Below are positions 365 to 23,620 of a stretch of 23,620 bases of DNA, piece by piece. The DNA comes from Clostridia bacterium (GTDB lineage: Bacteria; Bacillota_A; Clostridia; Christensenellales; Aristaeellaceae), in the NCBI GenBank assembly GCA_017399225.1, contig JAFQEB010000079.1:1-23620 (forward strand), read 5' to 3'. A program made the position numbers and the translations under genes. Each line of letters starts with the position of its first letter. Positions within the stretch are counted from its first letter, which is position 1. The notes under the pieces were generated by a model. It was not told where the DNA came from and did no database searches. It worked only from the letters and a program-made list of their open reading frames with translations.

Positions 365-1063
365 TCACCTGGAATAGATCCCCGTAAGCACCTCGTTGAT
401 GAAGCTTTCCCGGTGGGGCAGGGCCTCATCCTGCCGGGCTGCCTCCGCAGCGGCCTCATTGTCATAGGGGACGCTGAGCACCGTCATCGTCAGGGGCGCA
501 GGGGTTTTGCAGCCCAGCTCACCCTCCAGGATCAGCGCATGGGCATTGGGTACGCCCAGGCTGTTGCCCACGCTGCCGGTGTTGAGGGCATAGCCGTCGT
601 TCAGCGTGCGCACAAAGGGACGATGGCTGTCCGCAAAGAGGATGCCCGTGTAGGTCACGCCGTTTGCACGGAAGGCCCGGGCGAAGATCTCCTTGTCCGT
701 CTGGACGCTGATCAGGGGCGTGACGGGCCTGCCATGGAAGAGCCGGAAGTGCACGCCGCTCACCCAGCAGTCGAGCTCCCGGGGCAGGGTGCGCAGCCAA
801 TCCAGCCGCTCCTGACCCAGCTGGGCCCAGAAGTAGCCGTCCTCGCTGAATTCCTTTCCGCCGATGCCATAATCCCAGTTGCCGCCGACGAAACGGGTAC
901 AGTTCTCCCGCACCCAGTCGCAGGTCTGGGCGTTTTGAGGGCCCTTGCCCACCGCGTCGCCCAGGAACCAGATCTCATCCACCCCGATGCGGCGCAGCTC
1001 TTTTTCCAGCGCCTGGGTGGCCACAAAGTTGCCGTGGAGGTCACCGATACATGCGATCTTCAT
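365..1063 (-). CDS. Metallophosphoesterase (calcineurin-like, YfcE/MJ0936-type)
   Basis: The 232-residue protein has the signature order of cytosolic metallophosphoesterases: GDLHGN (metal ligands D8 and H10), GDAVGKGP (D36), GNWDYG (N62), then His-containing motifs around LFHGRP and ADSH and a closing NTGSVG. This fits binuclear-metal phosphodiesterases or phosphatases of the YfcE/MJ0936 type. The usual late GHTH motif is changed to ADSH, so substrate and activity are uncertain. There is no signal peptide. The start ATG (1061-1063) has a weak AAGGAAAG upstream. It follows luxS on the same strand after about 170 bp of palindromic spacer, so co-transcription is possible. The family is secure; the substrate is unknown. 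Confidence 0.85.
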   Translation of the reverse strand: MKIACIGDLHGNFVATQALEKELRRIGVDEIWFLGDAVGKGPQNAQTCDWVRENCTRFVGGNWDYGIGGKEFSEDGYFWAQLGQERLDWLRTLPRELDCWVSGVHFRLFHGRPVTPLISVQTDKEIFARAFRANGVTYTGILFADSHRPFVRTLNDGYALNTGSVGNSLGVPNAHALILEGELGCKTPAPLTMTVLSVPYDNEAAAEAARQDEALPHRESFINEVLTGIYSR

Positions 1064-1109
1064 ATGCTTTCCTTACAGTTGTCACAGTTGTCGCGGATGA
1101 AAAGAATCG

Positions 1110-1225
1110 CGCCTTCGGGCGCGACCAAAGGGCTTTCCGTCATCCAACATCGCTTGATGCTTTCGCTTTCAGCGAAGTCCCCACCGGGGACACGCATCTG
1201 CACGATGCCCTTTGGAAACCTTCGG
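1110..1225. repeat. Intergenic palindromic repeat, copy A
   Basis: The left half (1110-1139) matches 29 of 30 bases of the left half of the copy at 5281-5310. The right half (1207-1225) matches 5314-5332 at 19 of 19. In this copy the halves are separated by 67 bp containing hairpins (CGCTTTCAGCG; GTCCCC-ACC-GGGGAC-like), against 3 bp in the other copy. CGCGCC-TTCG-GGCGCG at its left end would form a stable tetraloop hairpin in RNA. It sits between luxS and the metallophosphoesterase gene. A 2 x 9-bp tandem repeat of ACAGTTGTC lies beside it at 1075-1092. Confidence 0.75.
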
Positions 1226-1236
1226 TACCTCGCACT

Positions 1237-1701
1237 TTACTCAGGATAGGTCAGGGTATCCGGCGTGACGCTCTCCAGCACGCGGACATAGGCAGCGGCC
1301 TCCGCCTTGGCGCCGGGGAGATCATGCTCCAGGTAGTTGCCGCATTCGATCTGCTTCGCGCCGGGGATCTCCCCCTCAAAGGCAGCAGCGAAGGCAAAGG
1401 CCTCCTTCACCAGCCCGATGGCCTGCTGATGGCTCACCGCATCCCGCAGGATCAGGTAGAAGCCCGTGCGGCAGCCCATGGGGCCGAAGTACACCACCTG
1501 ATCCGACCAGGTCGAGGAGCGGACGTAGGTCGCCACCAGGTGCTCAATGGTATGCAAGGGGGCCTGGGGCAGGTAATCGCCCCGGTTGGGCCACTTGCAG
1601 CGCAGGTCGTAGGTCACGCAGTCGCCGTCCACGCGGGAGATGTACATACCGGGGGTCAGGGTATCGTGATTGATGGTAAAGGATGCAATTTTGCGCAGCA
1701 T
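1237..1701 (-). CDS. luxS: S-ribosylhomocysteine lyase LuxS
   Basis: LuxS cleaves S-ribosylhomocysteine to homocysteine and DPD, the precursor of autoinducer-2, in the cytosolic activated methyl cycle. The 154-residue length is normal for the family. Diagnostic motifs are intact: HTIEH (metal ligands H50 and H54, catalytic E53), GPMGCRTGFY (catalytic C77) and ECGNYLEHDL (third ligand C120). The ATG at 1699-1701 follows CAGGAGGC with good spacing, and a consensus promoter lies just upstream. No pfs/mtnN nucleosidase gene is adjacent, so the partner enzyme must be elsewhere. Motif order and length leave little doubt about identity. Whether AI-2 serves signalling or only detoxification here cannot be read from sequence. 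Confidence 0.97.
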   Translation of the reverse strand: MLRKIASFTINHDTLTPGMYISRVDGDCVTYDLRCKWPNRGDYLPQAPLHTIEHLVATYVRSSTWSDQVVYFGPMGCRTGFYLILRDAVSHQQAIGLVKEAFAFAAAFEGEIPGAKQIECGNYLEHDLPGAKAEAAAYVRVLESVTPDTLTYPE

Positions 1702-1734
1702 CGCAGCAGCCTCCTGTTTGATCTATTCCCGCCC

Positions 1735-1763
1735 ATTATATCACAGCTTTCCCGCTTTCACAA
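1735..1763 (-). promoter_or_regulatory. luxS promoter with overlapping palindrome
   Basis: Read on the minus strand, TTGTGA (1758-1763) and TATAAT (1735-1740) are separated by 17 bp, and luxS starts 34 bp downstream of the -10 box. A 6-bp inverted repeat (CCGCTT at 1752-1757, AAGCGG at 1762-1767, 4-bp loop) overlaps the -35 box. It also abuts the GNAT stop codon, so it could be an operator or part of the GNAT 3' end. Confidence 0.75.
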
Positions 1764-1770
1764 GCGGCGC

Positions 1771-2232
1771 TTACAGCGGCTTGAGGTACACGTCGGCATT
1801 GTTGCGTGCCCGGATGCCCCTTTGCAGAGTATAGCCGTGCCTGCGGTAGAACTCCGGTGCGGTGTCCGTGGTCAGGATGGCGTAGGCGCAGCCATCCTCT
1901 CGCAGCTTCTCCTCTGCCCTGTGCAGCAGCGCTGCGCCGTGGCCCTGGCGGCGATGCTTCGGCGCGATCCAGAATTCCTCCACGCAGCCCAGCCGTGTAG
2001 TAAAGAAGCCCTTCCAGGCCGTTACGGTATCCGAGGCCACAAACAGCAGGAAACCCACGACCTCTCCCTCTTCATCCAGCCGGACGAGGGCCGCATCCTC
2101 CCCCACACTCATCTCTGCAAAAAGGCCGTCCCAGTTGGTGACGCGCACCCCCAGCTCGGCATAGTACGCCTTGAACGCGTCCTGGTATGCAGGCTCATAG
2201 AAGTCATGAATCAGCAGATCGGTGTATTCCAT
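1771..2232 (-). CDS. GNAT-family N-acetyltransferase
   Basis: A protein of 153 residues with one GNAT fold. Motif A is visible as HRRQGHGAALL (about residues 93-103, the acetyl-CoA pyrophosphate loop), preceded by the beta-strand VEEFWIAP and followed by FYRRHGY near residue 130, typical of motif B. I chose the ATG at 2232 because GAAAGGA lies about 7 nt upstream. An ATG two codons earlier is too close to that site, and a longer frame would begin inside the terminator hairpin. The substrate is unknown: a small amine, an antibiotic or a protein N terminus are all possible. The gene is preceded by a promoter, an 18-codon leader ORF and an intrinsic terminator, an arrangement typical of attenuated, inducible genes. 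luxS follows with its own promoter. Confidence 0.88.
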   Translation of the reverse strand: MEYTDLLIHDFYEPAYQDAFKAYYAELGVRVTNWDGLFAEMSVGEDAALVRLDEEGEVVGFLLFVASDTVTAWKGFFTTRLGCVEEFWIAPKHRRQGHGAALLHRAEEKLREDGCAYAILTTDTAPEFYRRHGYTLQRGIRARNNADVYLKPL

Positions 2233-2256
2233 ATTCATATCCTTTCTTCGCGGCAC

Positions 2257-2289
2257 AAAAAAACATGCTCCGGTCACCGAAGCATGTTT
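2257..2289 (-). terminator. Intrinsic terminator in GNAT leader (attenuator candidate)
   Basis: A 9-bp perfect stem (AAACATGCT 2261-2269, AGCATGTTT 2281-2289) with a CGGT/ACCG inner segment is followed on the minus strand by seven T residues (2257-2263). It lies between the minus-strand promoter at 2406-2434 and the GNAT start at 2232, so it would stop transcripts before the gene. That makes it an attenuator rather than an ordinary gene-end terminator. Confidence 0.85.
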
Positions 2290-2319
2290 GATTTCTGCGT
2301 CACAAAGAAGGCCAGTGCC

Positions 2320-2376
2320 TCAGGCCATACAAAGTGAACGGCAGATCGCTCCGTGCCGGGTCCGAATCGCAAACAT
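2320..2376 (-). CDS. 18-residue leader peptide upstream of GNAT gene
   Basis: A short ORF reads MFAIRTRHGAICRSLCMA and then TGA. It has a near-ideal Shine-Dalgarno (AAGGAGGTGA at 2382-2391) 5 nt before its ATG. It lies about 20 nt downstream of the predicted transcription start and upstream of the intrinsic terminator at 2257-2289. It contains three Arg and two Cys codons but no run of one amino acid, so it does not look like a biosynthetic attenuator peptide. Its place and strong ribosome site fit a regulatory uORF like those before inducible antibiotic-resistance genes in Firmicutes. The start region (GUAUGUUUG, 2370-2378) is complementary to the 5' arm of the terminator. A free-standing small protein is the alternative. 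The peptide is not one I recognise. Confidence 0.7.
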   Translation of the reverse strand: MFAIRTRHGAICRSLCMA

Positions 2377-2405
2377 ACCGCTCACCTCCTTCCAATGATA
2401 CGATC

Positions 2406-2434
2406 ATTATAGCACCGCCGGGCCACCGCGTCAA
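2406..2434 (-). promoter_or_regulatory. Promoter for leader ORF and GNAT gene
   Basis: On the minus strand TTGACG (2429-2434) and TATAAT (2406-2411) are separated by exactly 17 bp. Transcription would start near 2399, about 8 nt before the leader ribosome site, giving a leader RNA of roughly 145 nt before the terminator. It is divergent from the radical SAM promoter 15 bp away. Confidence 0.88.
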
Positions 2435-2507: not shown

Positions 2508-3632
2508 ATGAAAATTTCCAAGCGCGACGCGCTGATGTGGTACTCCTTCTTTGCCCAGCTGGATGAGGAGGAGCCCCTCATGCCCCGCCAGCAGGAGATC
2601 GCCCTGGCGGTGCTCAGCCAGATCGAACTGGCCCAGGAGAAGCGCATCGCCGACCTGCGCGCCCAGATCCCCGGCTTGCAGACCATCGGCGGCCGCACGT
2701 ACTTCGTCGGCGACGAAAGGCAGTTCTCCAAGGGCTGCCGCTCCTGCCTGACCGGCACGGGCCTCTCCGCCATCCGCAAGACCAACAAGTGCAACATCAA
2801 CTGCCGCTTCTGCTACAACTACGGCGAGCTGGACTGCCAGCCCCCCATCGGCGAGGGCATGTGGGAGATCGGCGGCACCAAGTTCCGCGAGGAGGATATC
2901 GACCTCCTGCTGAGCATCCAGCAAAAGCCCACGGGCGTTTCCTATGTCTACCTCGAGCCCTTCATGGAGATTGAGAAGTACTACGGCGTCATCCGCAAAT
3001 TCCACGCCGCCGGGGTGCACCAGCACATGTACACCAACGGCACCCTCTGCACGGAGGAGAATTTGCAGGCCCTTGCTGAAGCCGGCCTGGACGAGCTGCG
3101 CTTCAACCTCGGCGGCACGAACTGCGCGGACAAGGTGATCGCCAATATGAAGCTGGCGAAAAAGTACATCCCGACCATCGCCGTCGAAACCCCCATGACC
3201 CCGGATTTCTACGAGCAGTTCCAGCAAAAGAAGGACGAGATCCTCGCTACCGGCATCAGCTTCATCAACTGCGCCGAGCTGCACCTGAACCCCAACAACA
3301 TCGGCAACTACGAGGGCGAGCCGATGTACATGACCCGCCACGGCTACCTTTCGCCCATCTGGAGCCACGAGCTGACCTGCCGCCTGATGAAGCAGTGCGC
3401 GGAGGAAAAGTGGCCCATCGTCATCCACGACTGCTGCAACATGACCAAGTTCGCCCGCGACCTCAACGTAAAGGTGCACGAGGGCGGATGGTTCGGCGCC
3501 AGCGCGTACCACAGCGAGTTCGACGGCATCCCCTACGCGGCCTTCCTGCCCACGCTGGAGGACCCGGACTTCACCTTCGTGGAAGAAGAGGAGCAGCCCG
3601 TCGGCTACCGCCCGGGGGACATCGTGCTATGA
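2508..3632 (+). CDS. Radical SAM protein of unknown substrate
   Basis: A protein of 374 residues. C-x3-C-x2-C (C95, C99, C102 in KCNINCRFCYNY) is the canonical [4Fe-4S] site that cleaves S-adenosylmethionine to start radical chemistry. Downstream strands (VYLEPFMEIE, HMYTNGT, ELRFNLGG) fit the partial TIM barrel. A CRSC pair (C77, C80) just before the cluster and a late HDCCN motif are extra cysteines that could bind a further metal site. The protein has no signal peptide and no obvious precursor-peptide-binding domain. It starts at ATG 2508 behind CGGAGG. Its stop overlaps the next start (ATGA), so it is coupled to the DUF3237-like protein and an alpha/beta hydrolase. The substrate is not identifiable. 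An enzyme in small-molecule metabolism and a maturase are both possible. Confidence 0.85.
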   Translation: MKISKRDALMWYSFFAQLDEEEPLMPRQQEIALAVLSQIELAQEKRIADLRAQIPGLQTIGGRTYFVGDERQFSKGCRSCLTGTGLSAIRKTNKCNINCRFCYNYGELDCQPPIGEGMWEIGGTKFREEDIDLLLSIQQKPTGVSYVYLEPFMEIEKYYGVIRKFHAAGVHQHMYTNGTLCTEENLQALAEAGLDELRFNLGGTNCADKVIANMKLAKKYIPTIAVETPMTPDFYEQFQQKKDEILATGISFINCAELHLNPNNIGNYEGEPMYMTRHGYLSPIWSHELTCRLMKQCAEEKWPIVIHDCCNMTKFARDLNVKVHEGGWFGASAYHSEFDGIPYAAFLPTLEDPDFTFVEEEEQPVGYRPGDIVL

Positions 3633-20725: not shown

Positions 20726-23620
20726 TCAGTCCATGAGCGCCATCTGGGCTTCCACCAGCGCTTCGTAGTCCTTGTTGTCCGCGAAGCCGTGGATGCCGGA
20801 GATGTTGTCGGTGTAGTAGCAGCTGTTGTTGATGTACAGCAGCACCTTGGTATCGCCGCCAAGCTGGTCGGCAATGCTGATGGGCTCGCCGAAGGCAAAG
20901 CCGGTCAGCTGCTCCGGATCGGTGGTCGTGACGTCGTTCAGGGTGGCCAGGAAGGTCATGAACTCAGTCTCCATGGTGATCTTGGGCGCGTTGTACAGCT
21001 TGTAGGTGACGGTCACATAGCCGTCCTCGACCAGCACGGTCACCTCGCCGATGACGTGCATGTTGCCCGCAACCAGCTCGAAGGTCTGCTCGCCCTCGAC
21101 GGACAGGTCGATGGCGGTGAACATGTTCCAGACGTCCAGATCATCGCGCACGTCGCGGAAGCGGGGGCCGATGGAGGAGACGGTCATCCGGTACAGGGTG
21201 AAGTTGGGGATCTCCTGATACTCGGTCTCGCCGCAGCATTCACACACGCGGTACTTTTCGCCGGGAGCATCCTCCGTGGGAGGACGGCTGACGATCCACT
21301 CGCCGGTGTGGCCGGTGGCGGGGATGGCCTCGGTGTAGGTGTGGGAGGCGTCGTTCTGACAGGTGAAGGTCTTCACGCCGTCCTCTTCACAGGTGGGAGC
21401 AGTGGTCTCAACGCCGTCGTCATAATCGTGGCCGATGGCGGGGATGGCCTCGGTGTAGGTGTGGGAGGCGTCGTTCTGGCAGGTGAAGGTCTTCACGCCG
21501 TCCTCTTCACAGGTGGGAGCGGTGGTCTCAACGCCGTCGTCGTAGTCATGGCCGATGGCGTCGACAGTCTCGGTGTAGGTGTGGTCGCAGCCCTCATTCT
21601 GGCAGGTGAAGAGCTTCTCGCCCTCCTCCTCACAGGTGGGAGCCTTGGTCTCCACGCCCTCGTCGTAGCTGTGGCCGGTGGCGGGGATCACTTCGCCCTC
21701 GATCTCAGTACCGCAGACGGTGCACTCGTAGGTCGCAGAGCCATCCTCGGTGCAGGTGGGAGGCACGATCACAGCCTGGTCAGGCTTGCTGTGGCCCTTG
21801 GCAGGGATGGTTTCCTCAGTGGTCTTGCCGCAAACAGTACAGGTGGTGACCAGCGTGCCCTCTTCGGTACAGGTGGGGGCGGGCTTCTCCACGCCGGCAT
21901 CCCACTTATGATCCTCGGTCACGGGAACAGCCTCGGTCTTGGTGTGCTCGGCGTCATTCTTACAGGTGAAGGTCTTCACGCCTTCGTCCTTACAGGTGGG
22001 CTCGGTGGTCACAACGCCCTCGTCGTAGTCATGGCCGATGGCATCGATCGCTTCGGTGTAGGTGTGGTCGCAGCCCTCATTCTGGCAGGTGAAGAGCTTC
22101 TCGCCCTCCTCCTCACAGGTGGGAGCCTTGGTCTCCACGCCCTCGTCGTAGCTGTGGCCGGTGGCGGGGATCACTTCACCCTCGATCTCCGTACCGCAGA
22201 CGGTGCACTTGTAGGACTCGGAACCATCCTCAGTGCAGGTGGGCGGCACGATCACAGCCTGGTCGGGCTTGCTGTGGCCCTTGGCGGGGATGACGTCTTC
22301 CTTGGTCTCGCCGCAAACGGTACAGGTGCTGACCAGCGTGCCCTCCTCGGTGCAGGTGGGGGCAGGCTTCTCCACGCCGGCGTCCCACTTGTGATCCTCG
22401 GTCACGGGAACGGACTCGGTCTTGGTGTGGGTGGCGTCGTTCTTGCAGGTGAAGGTCTTCACGCCCTCGTCCTTACAGGTGGGCTCGGTGGTCACAACGC
22501 CCTCGTCGTAGTCATGGCCGATGGCGTCGATCGCCTCAGTCTTGGTGTGGGTGGCGTCGTTCTTACAGGTGAAGGTCTTCACGCCCTCCTCCTCACAGGT
22601 GGGGGCAGTGGTCTCCACGCCATCGTCGTAATCATGGCCGGTGGCGGGGATGGCTTCAGTCTCGGTGTAGTCGCAGTTCTGGCAGGTGAAGGTCTTCACG
22701 CCATCCTGCTCACAGGTGGGGGCAGTGGTCTCCACGCCGTCATCCAGCTTATGGCCGGGGGCGTCCAGCACGGTGACCTCCATGGCCTCGGAGCAGTTGA
22801 TGCAGTAGACGGTCAGAGAGCCATCCTCTTCACAGGTGGGCTCAACACGCACAGGGGTGGTGGAAGGCTTGTGACCGGCAGCAGGGATCACCTCAGTCTT
22901 CACGTCGCCGCAGGCAGTACAGGTGGAGGTCTTCTTGCCCTCGGTGGTGCAGGTGGCTTCCGGCTCCACCACCGCTTCGCCGTAGGAGTGGCCCGTAGCG
23001 GTGATGATCTCCGTCTTCACGTCGCCGCAGCCGGAGCAGGTGGAGATCTTCACGCCGTCCTTGGTGCAGGTGGCGGGAGTGATCTCGTCGGTGTAGGCAT
23101 GGCCCGTCGCTGGGATGGCCTCGGTCTTGGTCTGGGTGCAGCCGTCGTTCTGGCAGGTGTAGGTCTTCACGCCCTCGGACTCGCAGCCGGGCTCCTTGGT
23201 CGTCTTGCCCGCATCCCACTTATGCTCCGTGCAGCCCGCGGACGCGATGGTCACGCTGCCGCCGCTGGTGCTGACGCCGATGGAAACTTCGTTGTCGTCG
23301 AAGTCATAAGCGCCCATGTTGTAGCAGGAGATGGTGTAGGTCTTGCCGGGCACGGCATTGGAGGTCACCTTGAAGGTGGCAGTGCCGATGCTGCCGCCGC
23401 CAAAGGGGCTCATCGCAGCGAAGAAGAAGCCGTTCTTGCCGCCGGCAACGCCGCTGGCGCCCGTAGCACTGACAAACTGCAGCGCGGACTTGTCATAGGA
23501 GAAGCCCACGTCGAAGGCACAGGCGTCGTTGGGGTTGGAAACAGAAACAGAGATGGTGACCGTGTCGCCAGCCTTGTAATCGGCAAAGGCAACACTGGCT
23601 GCGCAGACCAGAAGTACGCA
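20726..23620 (-). CDS. Secreted cohesin-like/Cys-His-repeat surface protein (partial, N terminus cut by window)
   Basis: 964 residues are visible and the frame is open to the window edge. The first residues (CVLLVCAASVAFA, then DYKAGD) look like the end of a signal peptide, so only a few codons are missing. GTG at 23509 is not the real start. Visible residues about 14-125 form a cohesin-like beta-sandwich (SVSVSNPNDACAFDVGFSYD through SIGVSTSGGSVTI). Then come 16 tandem modules of 37-41 residues (PTC..DGVKTFTC.NC....IPATGH pattern), a degenerate 17th half (CECCGETEYQEIPN), and a unique C-terminal domain of about 160 residues ending ALMD. No sorting motif, SLH domain or enzyme domain is seen. 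It is probably an extracellular structural, adhesive or metal-binding protein. The function is unknown. Confidence 0.85.
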   Translation of the reverse strand, partial: CVLLVCAASVAFADYKAGDTVTISVSVSNPNDACAFDVGFSYDKSALQFVSATGASGVAGGKNGFFFAAMSPFGGGSIGTATFKVTSNAVPGKTYTISCYNMGAYDFDDNEVSIGVSTSGGSVTIASAGCTEHKWDAGKTTKEPGCESEGVKTYTCQNDGCTQTKTEAIPATGHAYTDEITPATCTKDGVKISTCSGCGDVKTEIITATGHSYGEAVVEPEATCTTEGKKTSTCTACGDVKTEVIPAAGHKPSTTPVRVEPTCEEDGSLTVYCINCSEAMEVTVLDAPGHKLDDGVETTAPTCEQDGVKTFTCQNCDYTETEAIPATGHDYDDGVETTAPTCEEEGVKTFTCKNDATHTKTEAIDAIGHDYDEGVVTTEPTCKDEGVKTFTCKNDATHTKTESVPVTEDHKWDAGVEKPAPTCTEEGTLVSTCTVCGETKEDVIPAKGHSKPDQAVIVPPTCTEDGSESYKCTVCGTEIEGEVIPATGHSYDEGVETKAPTCEEEGEKLFTCQNEGCDHTYTEAIDAIGHDYDEGVVTTEPTCKDEGVKTFTCKNDAEHTKTEAVPVTEDHKWDAGVEKPAPTCTEEGTLVTTCTVCGKTTEETIPAKGHSKPDQAVIVPPTCTEDGSATYECTVCGTEIEGEVIPATGHSYDEGVETKAPTCEEEGEKLFTCQNEGCDHTYTETVDAIGHDYDDGVETTAPTCEEDGVKTFTCQNDASHTYTEAIPAIGHDYDDGVETTAPTCEEDGVKTFTCQNDASHTYTEAIPATGHTGEWIVSRPPTEDAPGEKYRVCECCGETEYQEIPNFTLYRMTVSSIGPRFRDVRDDLDVWNMFTAIDLSVEGEQTFELVAGNMHVIGEVTVLVEDGYVTVTYKLYNAPKITMETEFMTFLATLNDVTTTDPEQLTGFAFGEPISIADQLGGDTKVLLYINNSCYYTDNISGIHGFADNKDYEALVEAQMALMD
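21308..23221 (-). repeat. 16 tandem Cys/His coding modules
   Basis: Unit lengths from the N terminus are 41, 37, 39, 40, 39, 40, 41, 39, 40, 41, 41, 39, 40, 41, 40 and 40 residues. Most have C-x9-C then C-x2-C-type or C-x5-H-type spacing, closing with GH or DH. Openings vary between KWDAG, SKPDQ, SYDEG, DYDEG and DYDDG types. The last two units (21308-21427, 21428-21547) are nearly identical in DNA. Confidence 0.92.
21548..22513 (-). repeat. 483-bp higher-order tandem duplication
   Basis: Modules 7-10 (22031-22513) and 11-14 (21548-22030) have the same order of types (DYDEG, KWDAG, SKPDQ, SYDEG), the same lengths (41, 39, 40, 41) and highly similar DNA at an exact 483-bp offset. For example, CACGATCACAGCCTGGTC occurs at 21764 and again at 22247. 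A block of four modules was duplicated as a unit. Confidence 0.88.

Follow-up and report, generated by a model that had tools for sequence, protein, structure and literature searches.

We analysed a 23,620-nucleotide (nt) stretch of DNA from a Clostridia bacterium (contig JAFQEB010000079.1; the whole stretch is called the window), in which a gene for a GNAT N-acetyltransferase lies behind a leader with its own short open reading frame (ORF), a Shine–Dalgarno (SD) sequence and an intrinsic terminator. An original prediction made from the window alone had described a transcription attenuator here, and the promoter, the leader ORF, the terminator hairpin with its T7 tract and the ribosome-binding site and gene of the GNAT all lie where it had placed them. 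Absent from it were a start-site stem (A:B), a conserved antiterminator (X:E) and a further stem (D:G), whose segments are lettered below.

2406–2434, minus strand: sigma-70-type promoter TTGACG-17-TATAAT, with 11 of 12 consensus matches and an extended TG
2320–2376, minus strand: leader ORF of 18 codons plus stop, MFAIRTRHGAICRSLCMA, behind GAAGGAGGTGA
2376–2386, minus strand: segment A, GGUGAGCGGUA, from the 3′ half of the leader SD to the A of AUG; 5′ arm of A:B
2347–2353, minus strand: segment X, CGGAGCG, leader codons 8–10; antiterminator strand, within the A:B loop
2333–2343, minus strand: segment B, UGCCGUUCACU, leader codons 12–15; 3′ arm of the start-site stem
2301–2309, minus strand: segment D, UUCUUUGUG, 3′ of the leader stop; partner of G in the minimum-free-energy fold of the full leader
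2278–2284, minus strand: segment E, UGCUUCG as paired with X, within the terminator 5′ arm
2257–2289, minus strand: intrinsic terminator (5′ arm 2289–2277, loop 2276–2274, 3′ arm 2273–2261, T7 2263–2257)
2244–2252, minus strand: segment G, CGCGAAGAA, between the U-tract and the GNAT SD, overlapping the SD by 3 nt
2240–2246, minus strand: GNAT SD, GAAAGGA
1771–2232, minus strand: GNAT N-acetyltransferase, 153 amino acids, Pfam PF00583/PF13508 (Acetyltransf_1, E 4.4e-14)

The terminator hairpin (2289–2261) comprises 13 pairs, and none of 200 dinucleotide shuffles folds as well as the 174-nt leader (z −4.5). Sites resembling the promoter occur three times in 2 kilobases (0.6 in shuffles), those resembling the terminator seven times (1.7 in shuffles). 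The transcript should start near 2399, ~7 nt 5′ of the leader SD.

Related leaders at other loci

The same leader is found at 33 loci, the window and 32 further ones (given L numbers). A GNAT gene follows directly at 31 of these (the window and 30 of the 32 fetched), and every protein scanned downstream of a leader matches PF00583 (31/31); the two loci without a following GNAT are L046, at a contig end, and L076, which is degenerate. A GNAT search returned 101 homologues, and a species-genome scan with 53 aligned sequences (the window's and 52 of the 101) gave 34 loci. Five share the window's leader: L034, in which the ORF has 16 codons, and L001–L004, which are Clostridia from the gut of sheep, goat and roe deer. 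The 61-nt core of the leader, with the start-site stem as its only structure, was then turned into a covariance model (6 sequences at first, later 16 and 25), which was run over groups of whole genomes; chance hits were discarded by eye. In these overlapping searches, true members made up 15 of 17 hits (308 genomes), 4 of 4 (250), 6 of 7 (25), 9 of 11 (394), 4 of 4 (391), 1 of 3 (378) and 3 of 3 (119). The distribution is sparse, with 15 members in the 308 genomes of the best-covered family. The search model does not include segments E, D or G or the GNAT, which therefore provide an independent test of it. Chance hits, judged from a missing leader-plus-terminator layout, were L040, L041, L042, L054, L055, L062, L071, L072, L074 and L075.

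For comparative tests we used 25 non-redundant members (less than 90% alike) from 31 with downstream DNA; L045, L047, L052, L053, L060 and L069 were dropped at 90% or greater similarity to a kept member, and L046 and the later-found L076 stayed outside the set. In 30 of the 31 a script located a hairpin with a T-run where one was expected. The remaining member, L063, has an insertion in its loop; its terminator was placed manually, and it was excluded from the terminator-energy and SD-accessibility tests. Indel offsets were set by hand for six members (L034, L050, L064, L068, L070 and L073) in the swap, register, energy, peptide/length and shuffle tests. A whole-leader MAFFT alignment put the terminator arms out of register and was not used for pair counts.

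TTGACA or TTGACG stands upstream in 22 of the 25, including the window, and is absent in L065, L067 and L068. At L067 (1389–1501) the leader begins ~28 nt 3′ of a tRNA gene with no obvious promoter, and may be co-transcribed with the tRNA. L063 (1501–1760) matches X with its E over 11 base pairs (bp) despite the long loop insertion. L076 appears to be a decayed copy, in which the A:B and X:E strands are present, the terminator 3′ arm is broken and the fetched stretch holds no GNAT.

Beyond these loci, leader matches in plasmid and phage collections were at chance level only (best E 2), and one start-stem pattern searched in viral contigs had no match there. No Rfam 15 family reaches its gathering score in the window's leader, the one match elsewhere in the window being a tRNA; up to E 5, the leader region has a single match, far below gathering score and on the opposite strand. 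Among 15 relatives, none scores at gathering level within the leader (four tRNAs and one L10 leader lie elsewhere). The literature searched, open-licence PMC papers, yielded no account of this leader.

Conservation of the ORF and helices

The leader ORF spans 16–21 codons in all 25 members and exactly 18 in 19 of them, ending in TGA (14), TAA (10) or TAG (1). The two alternative frames also stay open over 16 codons or more, in 7 and 17 of the 25 members, so openness alone is weak evidence; the narrow length range is unexpected, arising at ~0.12 per sequence in shuffles. Positions A2 and G4 of the SD and the U and G of the AUG, none of which takes part in the A:B stem, never vary, in agreement with a need to bind ribosomes. 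Poor conservation of the short ORF and stem in relatives had been named as grounds for abandoning the original prediction. Both are kept upstream of other GNAT genes, in the same layout, which supports a leader-ORF transcription attenuator.

The start-site stem pairs the leader SD and start codon (A) with codons 12–15 (B). Of 275 cells, 94.2% are paired, against 24–50% when slid, with 25 cells changed on both sides and two-sided changes at four pairs. The antiterminator pairs leader codons 8–10 (X) with the terminator 5′ arm (E): 186 of 200 cells (93%) are paired in fixed register versus 42–54% when slid. Its own energy averages −12.2 kcal/mol against −8.3 for permuted partners (0/2000 swaps as good), beating the median swap in every one of the 25. 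At least 7 contiguous bp are formed in 23 of 25, compared with 37% of swapped pairs; contiguous length ranges from 5 to 13 bp. The third helix joins the stretch after the leader stop (D) to that before the GNAT SD (G), and also covaries (swaps 0/2000; 22 of 25 beat the median swap). Shuffling both partners within each sequence, which controls for composition, gives Stouffer scores of −18.8 (A:B), −9.5 (X:E) and −7.9 (D:G). A C:D hairpin around the leader stop has a modest signal (swaps 0/2000, Stouffer −3.5). Candidate pairings B:E, B:D, D:E, D:F, C:E, C:F, B:F and B:G were rejected, 159 to 1477 of 2000 swaps being as good.

X ends 3 nt 5′ of B in 22 of 25 members in the register used, in which two offsets were hand-set and L068 falls out of register. 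With X placed inside the loop of A:B, the two helices A:B and X:E would together make an H-type pseudoknot; a possible geometry, reasoned from the segment positions, has ~11 bp in A:B, 5–13 contiguous bp in X:E and loops of ~20 and 45 nt.

The original prediction had drawn its antiterminator from the leader start region, pairing GUAUGUUUG (2378–2370) with CAAACAUGC (2290–2282). This helix exists in the window, with 9 bp including one U–G, but does not generalize. The two regions share 7 or more contiguous bp in 8 of 25 relatives, against 16% of swapped pairs, and matches of at least 8 bp are confined to the window's clade (6 of its 10 members, none of 15 in the other). It is thus a feature of part of one clade, with a shuffle Stouffer score of −0.5 despite only 9 of 2000 swaps being as good.

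Readings of the proposed switch

We read the element as a conserved leader-ORF transcription attenuator that senses leader translation and would be ON when the ribosome is missing or held at the start codon (probability roughly 0.6). That the structure and ORF are real is highly probable; the direction, ON upon a start-site block, is slightly favoured. The leader combines a short ORF with an SD, an intrinsic terminator and an antiterminator taken from leader-ORF sequence, as leader-ORF attenuators do. A ribosome starting promptly would open A:B and cover X while E is transcribed; E would then pair with the terminator 3′ arm, transcription would stop and the GNAT would be off. Were no ribosome to start, or were one held at the start codon (through 30S shortage or initiation-trapping drugs), X would be free to capture E, the terminator would fail and the GNAT would be made, with A:B then acting as a latch that hides the leader SD. 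The quantity sensed would be leader translation at or near initiation, and no particular peptide. By its footprint, a 70S ribosome would cover X from codons ~4–14 and leave it uncovered at the start or stop codon, and general rates suggest that the pioneer ribosome should be mid-leader when the terminator is transcribed. Brisk translation would then lead to termination, and antitermination would follow if the ribosome were blocked at the start codon or earlier.

Several points weigh against this reading. Helix support is comparative: single-sequence rank against shuffles falls below 0.05 for A:B in 25/25 members, for X:E in only 11/25 and for D:G in 9/25, and in the window alone 60 of 200 shuffles of X do as well for X:E. 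The members are related and their p-values are not independent; split by clade, X:E swaps are as good in 58 of 5000 cases in the window's clade and in 1 of 5000 in the other. The model that chose the members holds A, X and B, which favours A:B. X and C also pass swaps with the GNAT SD region (0/2000 and 17/2000), more weakly in shuffles (−2.0 and −3.4), suggesting that composition or further pairings contribute. The idea that D:G adds a second lock by closing the GNAT SD thermodynamically finds no backing, the SD being more open with E blocked in 11 of 24 members. At a mean of −12.2 versus −16.0 kcal/mol, X:E is weaker than the terminator and must therefore win by earlier formation or pseudoknot stacking. 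A ribosome at the stop codon would leave X uncovered, so the OFF state needs the right timing.

The same inducers are expected from a classical drug-arrest attenuator with A:B as its anti-antiterminator. Here, the free leader would hide X in its loop and the terminator would form (OFF), and a ribosome arrested at the start codon would mask A, free X and allow X:E (ON); an untranslated leader would be OFF instead of ON. The standing of A:B as the best supported helix suits this scheme, as do the mean of 0.41 for X unpaired in the isolated leader hairpin and the start-codon stalling proposed for the vmlR and cplR leaders (PMC12121999). However, B pairs with A rather than with X, and no conserved helix sequesters X in the loop: a pairing of codons 2–6 with X, tried as the required anti-antiterminator, carries no signal (1234 of 2000 swaps as good, Stouffer 0.2). 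The 3-nt spacing of X and B moreover suits a stacked pseudoknot. We consider this alternative rather unlikely, though the strongest of the three. A ligand-binding riboswitch with a pseudoknot and an incidental ORF is a good deal less probable. It would be akin to guanidine-IV or its variant Gd4v, which likewise consist of two pseudoknot-joined hairpins, the 3′ one a terminator, before GNAT genes (PMC9788692). Pair types in X:E vary at all nine positions counted, however, as do the terminator loops; ORF length and SD are conserved; and the leader has no Rfam match at gathering score, in a search where the Rfam 15 content for guanidine-IV was not checked.

The original prediction's arrest by a specific leader peptide in response to a cognate compound is the least probable. 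Within the close group codons 7–14 resemble one another, the window, L001 and L004 sharing RHGAICRS and L002, L003 and L043 having similar residues, but codons 8–10 and 12–15 are held by RNA pairing and the peptides of distant members differ, unlike those of conserved erm- or cat-type arrest leaders. Mean identity is 0.29 and the minimum 0.06 (position by position, ungapped), and a 1-nt indel in L064 and L070 puts the B arm in another frame with the ORF still open. Since the peptides diverge but the SD, the start codon, the length of the ORF and the helices are conserved, a specific drug-dependent arrest peptide is unlikely. Nor do residue and per-column counts reveal a shared run of codons suited to amino-acid sensing, of the kind that amino-acid attenuators have for the regulated residue; the longest single-residue run in any leader is four, LLLL at the end of L067 (and its dropped near-copy L069). 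We infer that what counts is the act of translating the leader, not the peptide made. The broader part of the original proposal, a possible induction of the GNAT by a translation-targeting compound, is still a reasonable hypothesis.

Both cplR and vga(A) encode ABCF proteins, and YjhQ is an acetyltransferase. In working, the start-codon-stall leaders of vmlR, cplR and vga(A) and the Escherichia coli leader toiL appear most alike to the attenuator proposed here. Stalling at the start codon has been put forward as what induces the first three, and is also proposed for tetracycline and retapamulin on toiL (PMC12121999). Bacillus subtilis vmlR, Clostridioides difficile cplR and Staphylococcus haemolyticus vga(A) share with our locus a leader ORF before the gene, there a resistance gene; vmlR also uses transcription attenuation, though it encodes an ABCF protein rather than a GNAT (PMC9226507). 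In the present leader, SD and start codon can pair with codons 12–15, and the antiterminator strand lies in that loop. toiL, the upstream ORF (uORF) of topAI-yjhQ, similarly senses several classes of ribosome-targeting antibiotics, but pairs with the topAI ribosome site and acts through Rho-dependent termination, in contrast to the intrinsic terminator and possible pseudoknot antiterminator here. Guanidine-IV and Gd4v resemble our leader in joining a hairpin to a terminator hairpin by a pseudoknot, a possible one here, and in having GNAT genes among those regulated, an ON switch being shown for the former and proposed for the latter (PMC9788692, PMC7736828); Gd4v is enriched in mammalian guts (PMC9788692). 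Their pseudoknot nucleotides are highly conserved, whereas ours vary, and it is our leader that has a conserved ORF and SD. The Corynebacterium ilvB uORF motif likewise combines a short uORF, a terminator stem and an upstream stem holding antiterminator sequence, but is enriched in Ile/Leu/Val codons before a biosynthetic gene (PMC11109978), an enrichment not common to the leaders here, which precede a GNAT gene.

More tentatively, these leaders may constitute a new clostridial RNA family that measures translation initiation: the SD would either bind a 30S subunit or pair with the leader's own coding sequence, and in the second case a terminator-disarming H-type pseudoknot would be built. A pseudoknot antiterminator inside a coding leader would be unusual. 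If true, the diverse GNATs behind it would form a coordinated response to initiation-blocking compounds. The leaders would point to uncharacterised acetyltransferases that may be induced by ribosome-initiation stress, and a leader–reporter could reveal the natural inducer and thereby GNAT substrates. That the GNAT itself acts on a ribosome-targeting compound is conceivable but less likely than not.

The acetyltransferases and neighbouring genes

Leader-linked GNATs occur in one-, two- and three-domain forms, with alignment identity to the window's enzyme down to 17%; one regulatory module is thus common to different GNAT kinds. The AlphaFold2 model of the window's GNAT is a confident GNAT fold (pLDDT 94.9). 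Its best PDB matches are assorted GNATs, including aminoglycoside, streptothricin and nourseothricin acetyltransferases, protein N-terminal acetyltransferases and GNAT toxins, and the substrate is therefore not fixed by fold comparison.

Nine of the 34 GNAT loci (L007, L008, L009, L013, L016, L018, L023, L025 and L028) have another type of leader, recognized by eye. Its ORF, 12–17 codons long, includes GGAGGG-like codons that could form a helix with CCCUCC close to the stop codon; CCCUCC may alternatively pair with the GNAT SD (GGAGG), making a possible translational attenuator of parallel logic. L016 and L018 have identical upstream DNA, and L025 a deviating SD.

By layout the window's GNAT is monocistronic. 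A radical-SAM gene diverges upstream (2508–3632, plus strand), and the LuxS gene 3′ of the GNAT has its own promoter-like site (1763–1735). GNAT, LuxS and a gene that we take to be metallophosphatase-like are clustered in the window (365–2232), L001, L003 and L004, with an extra small opposite-strand gene between GNAT and LuxS in the latter three. Elsewhere in the window, a 927-amino-acid ORF (20726–23509, minus strand) is made up of numerous short repeats that contain Cys and follow the pattern TCxxEGxxxxTC.
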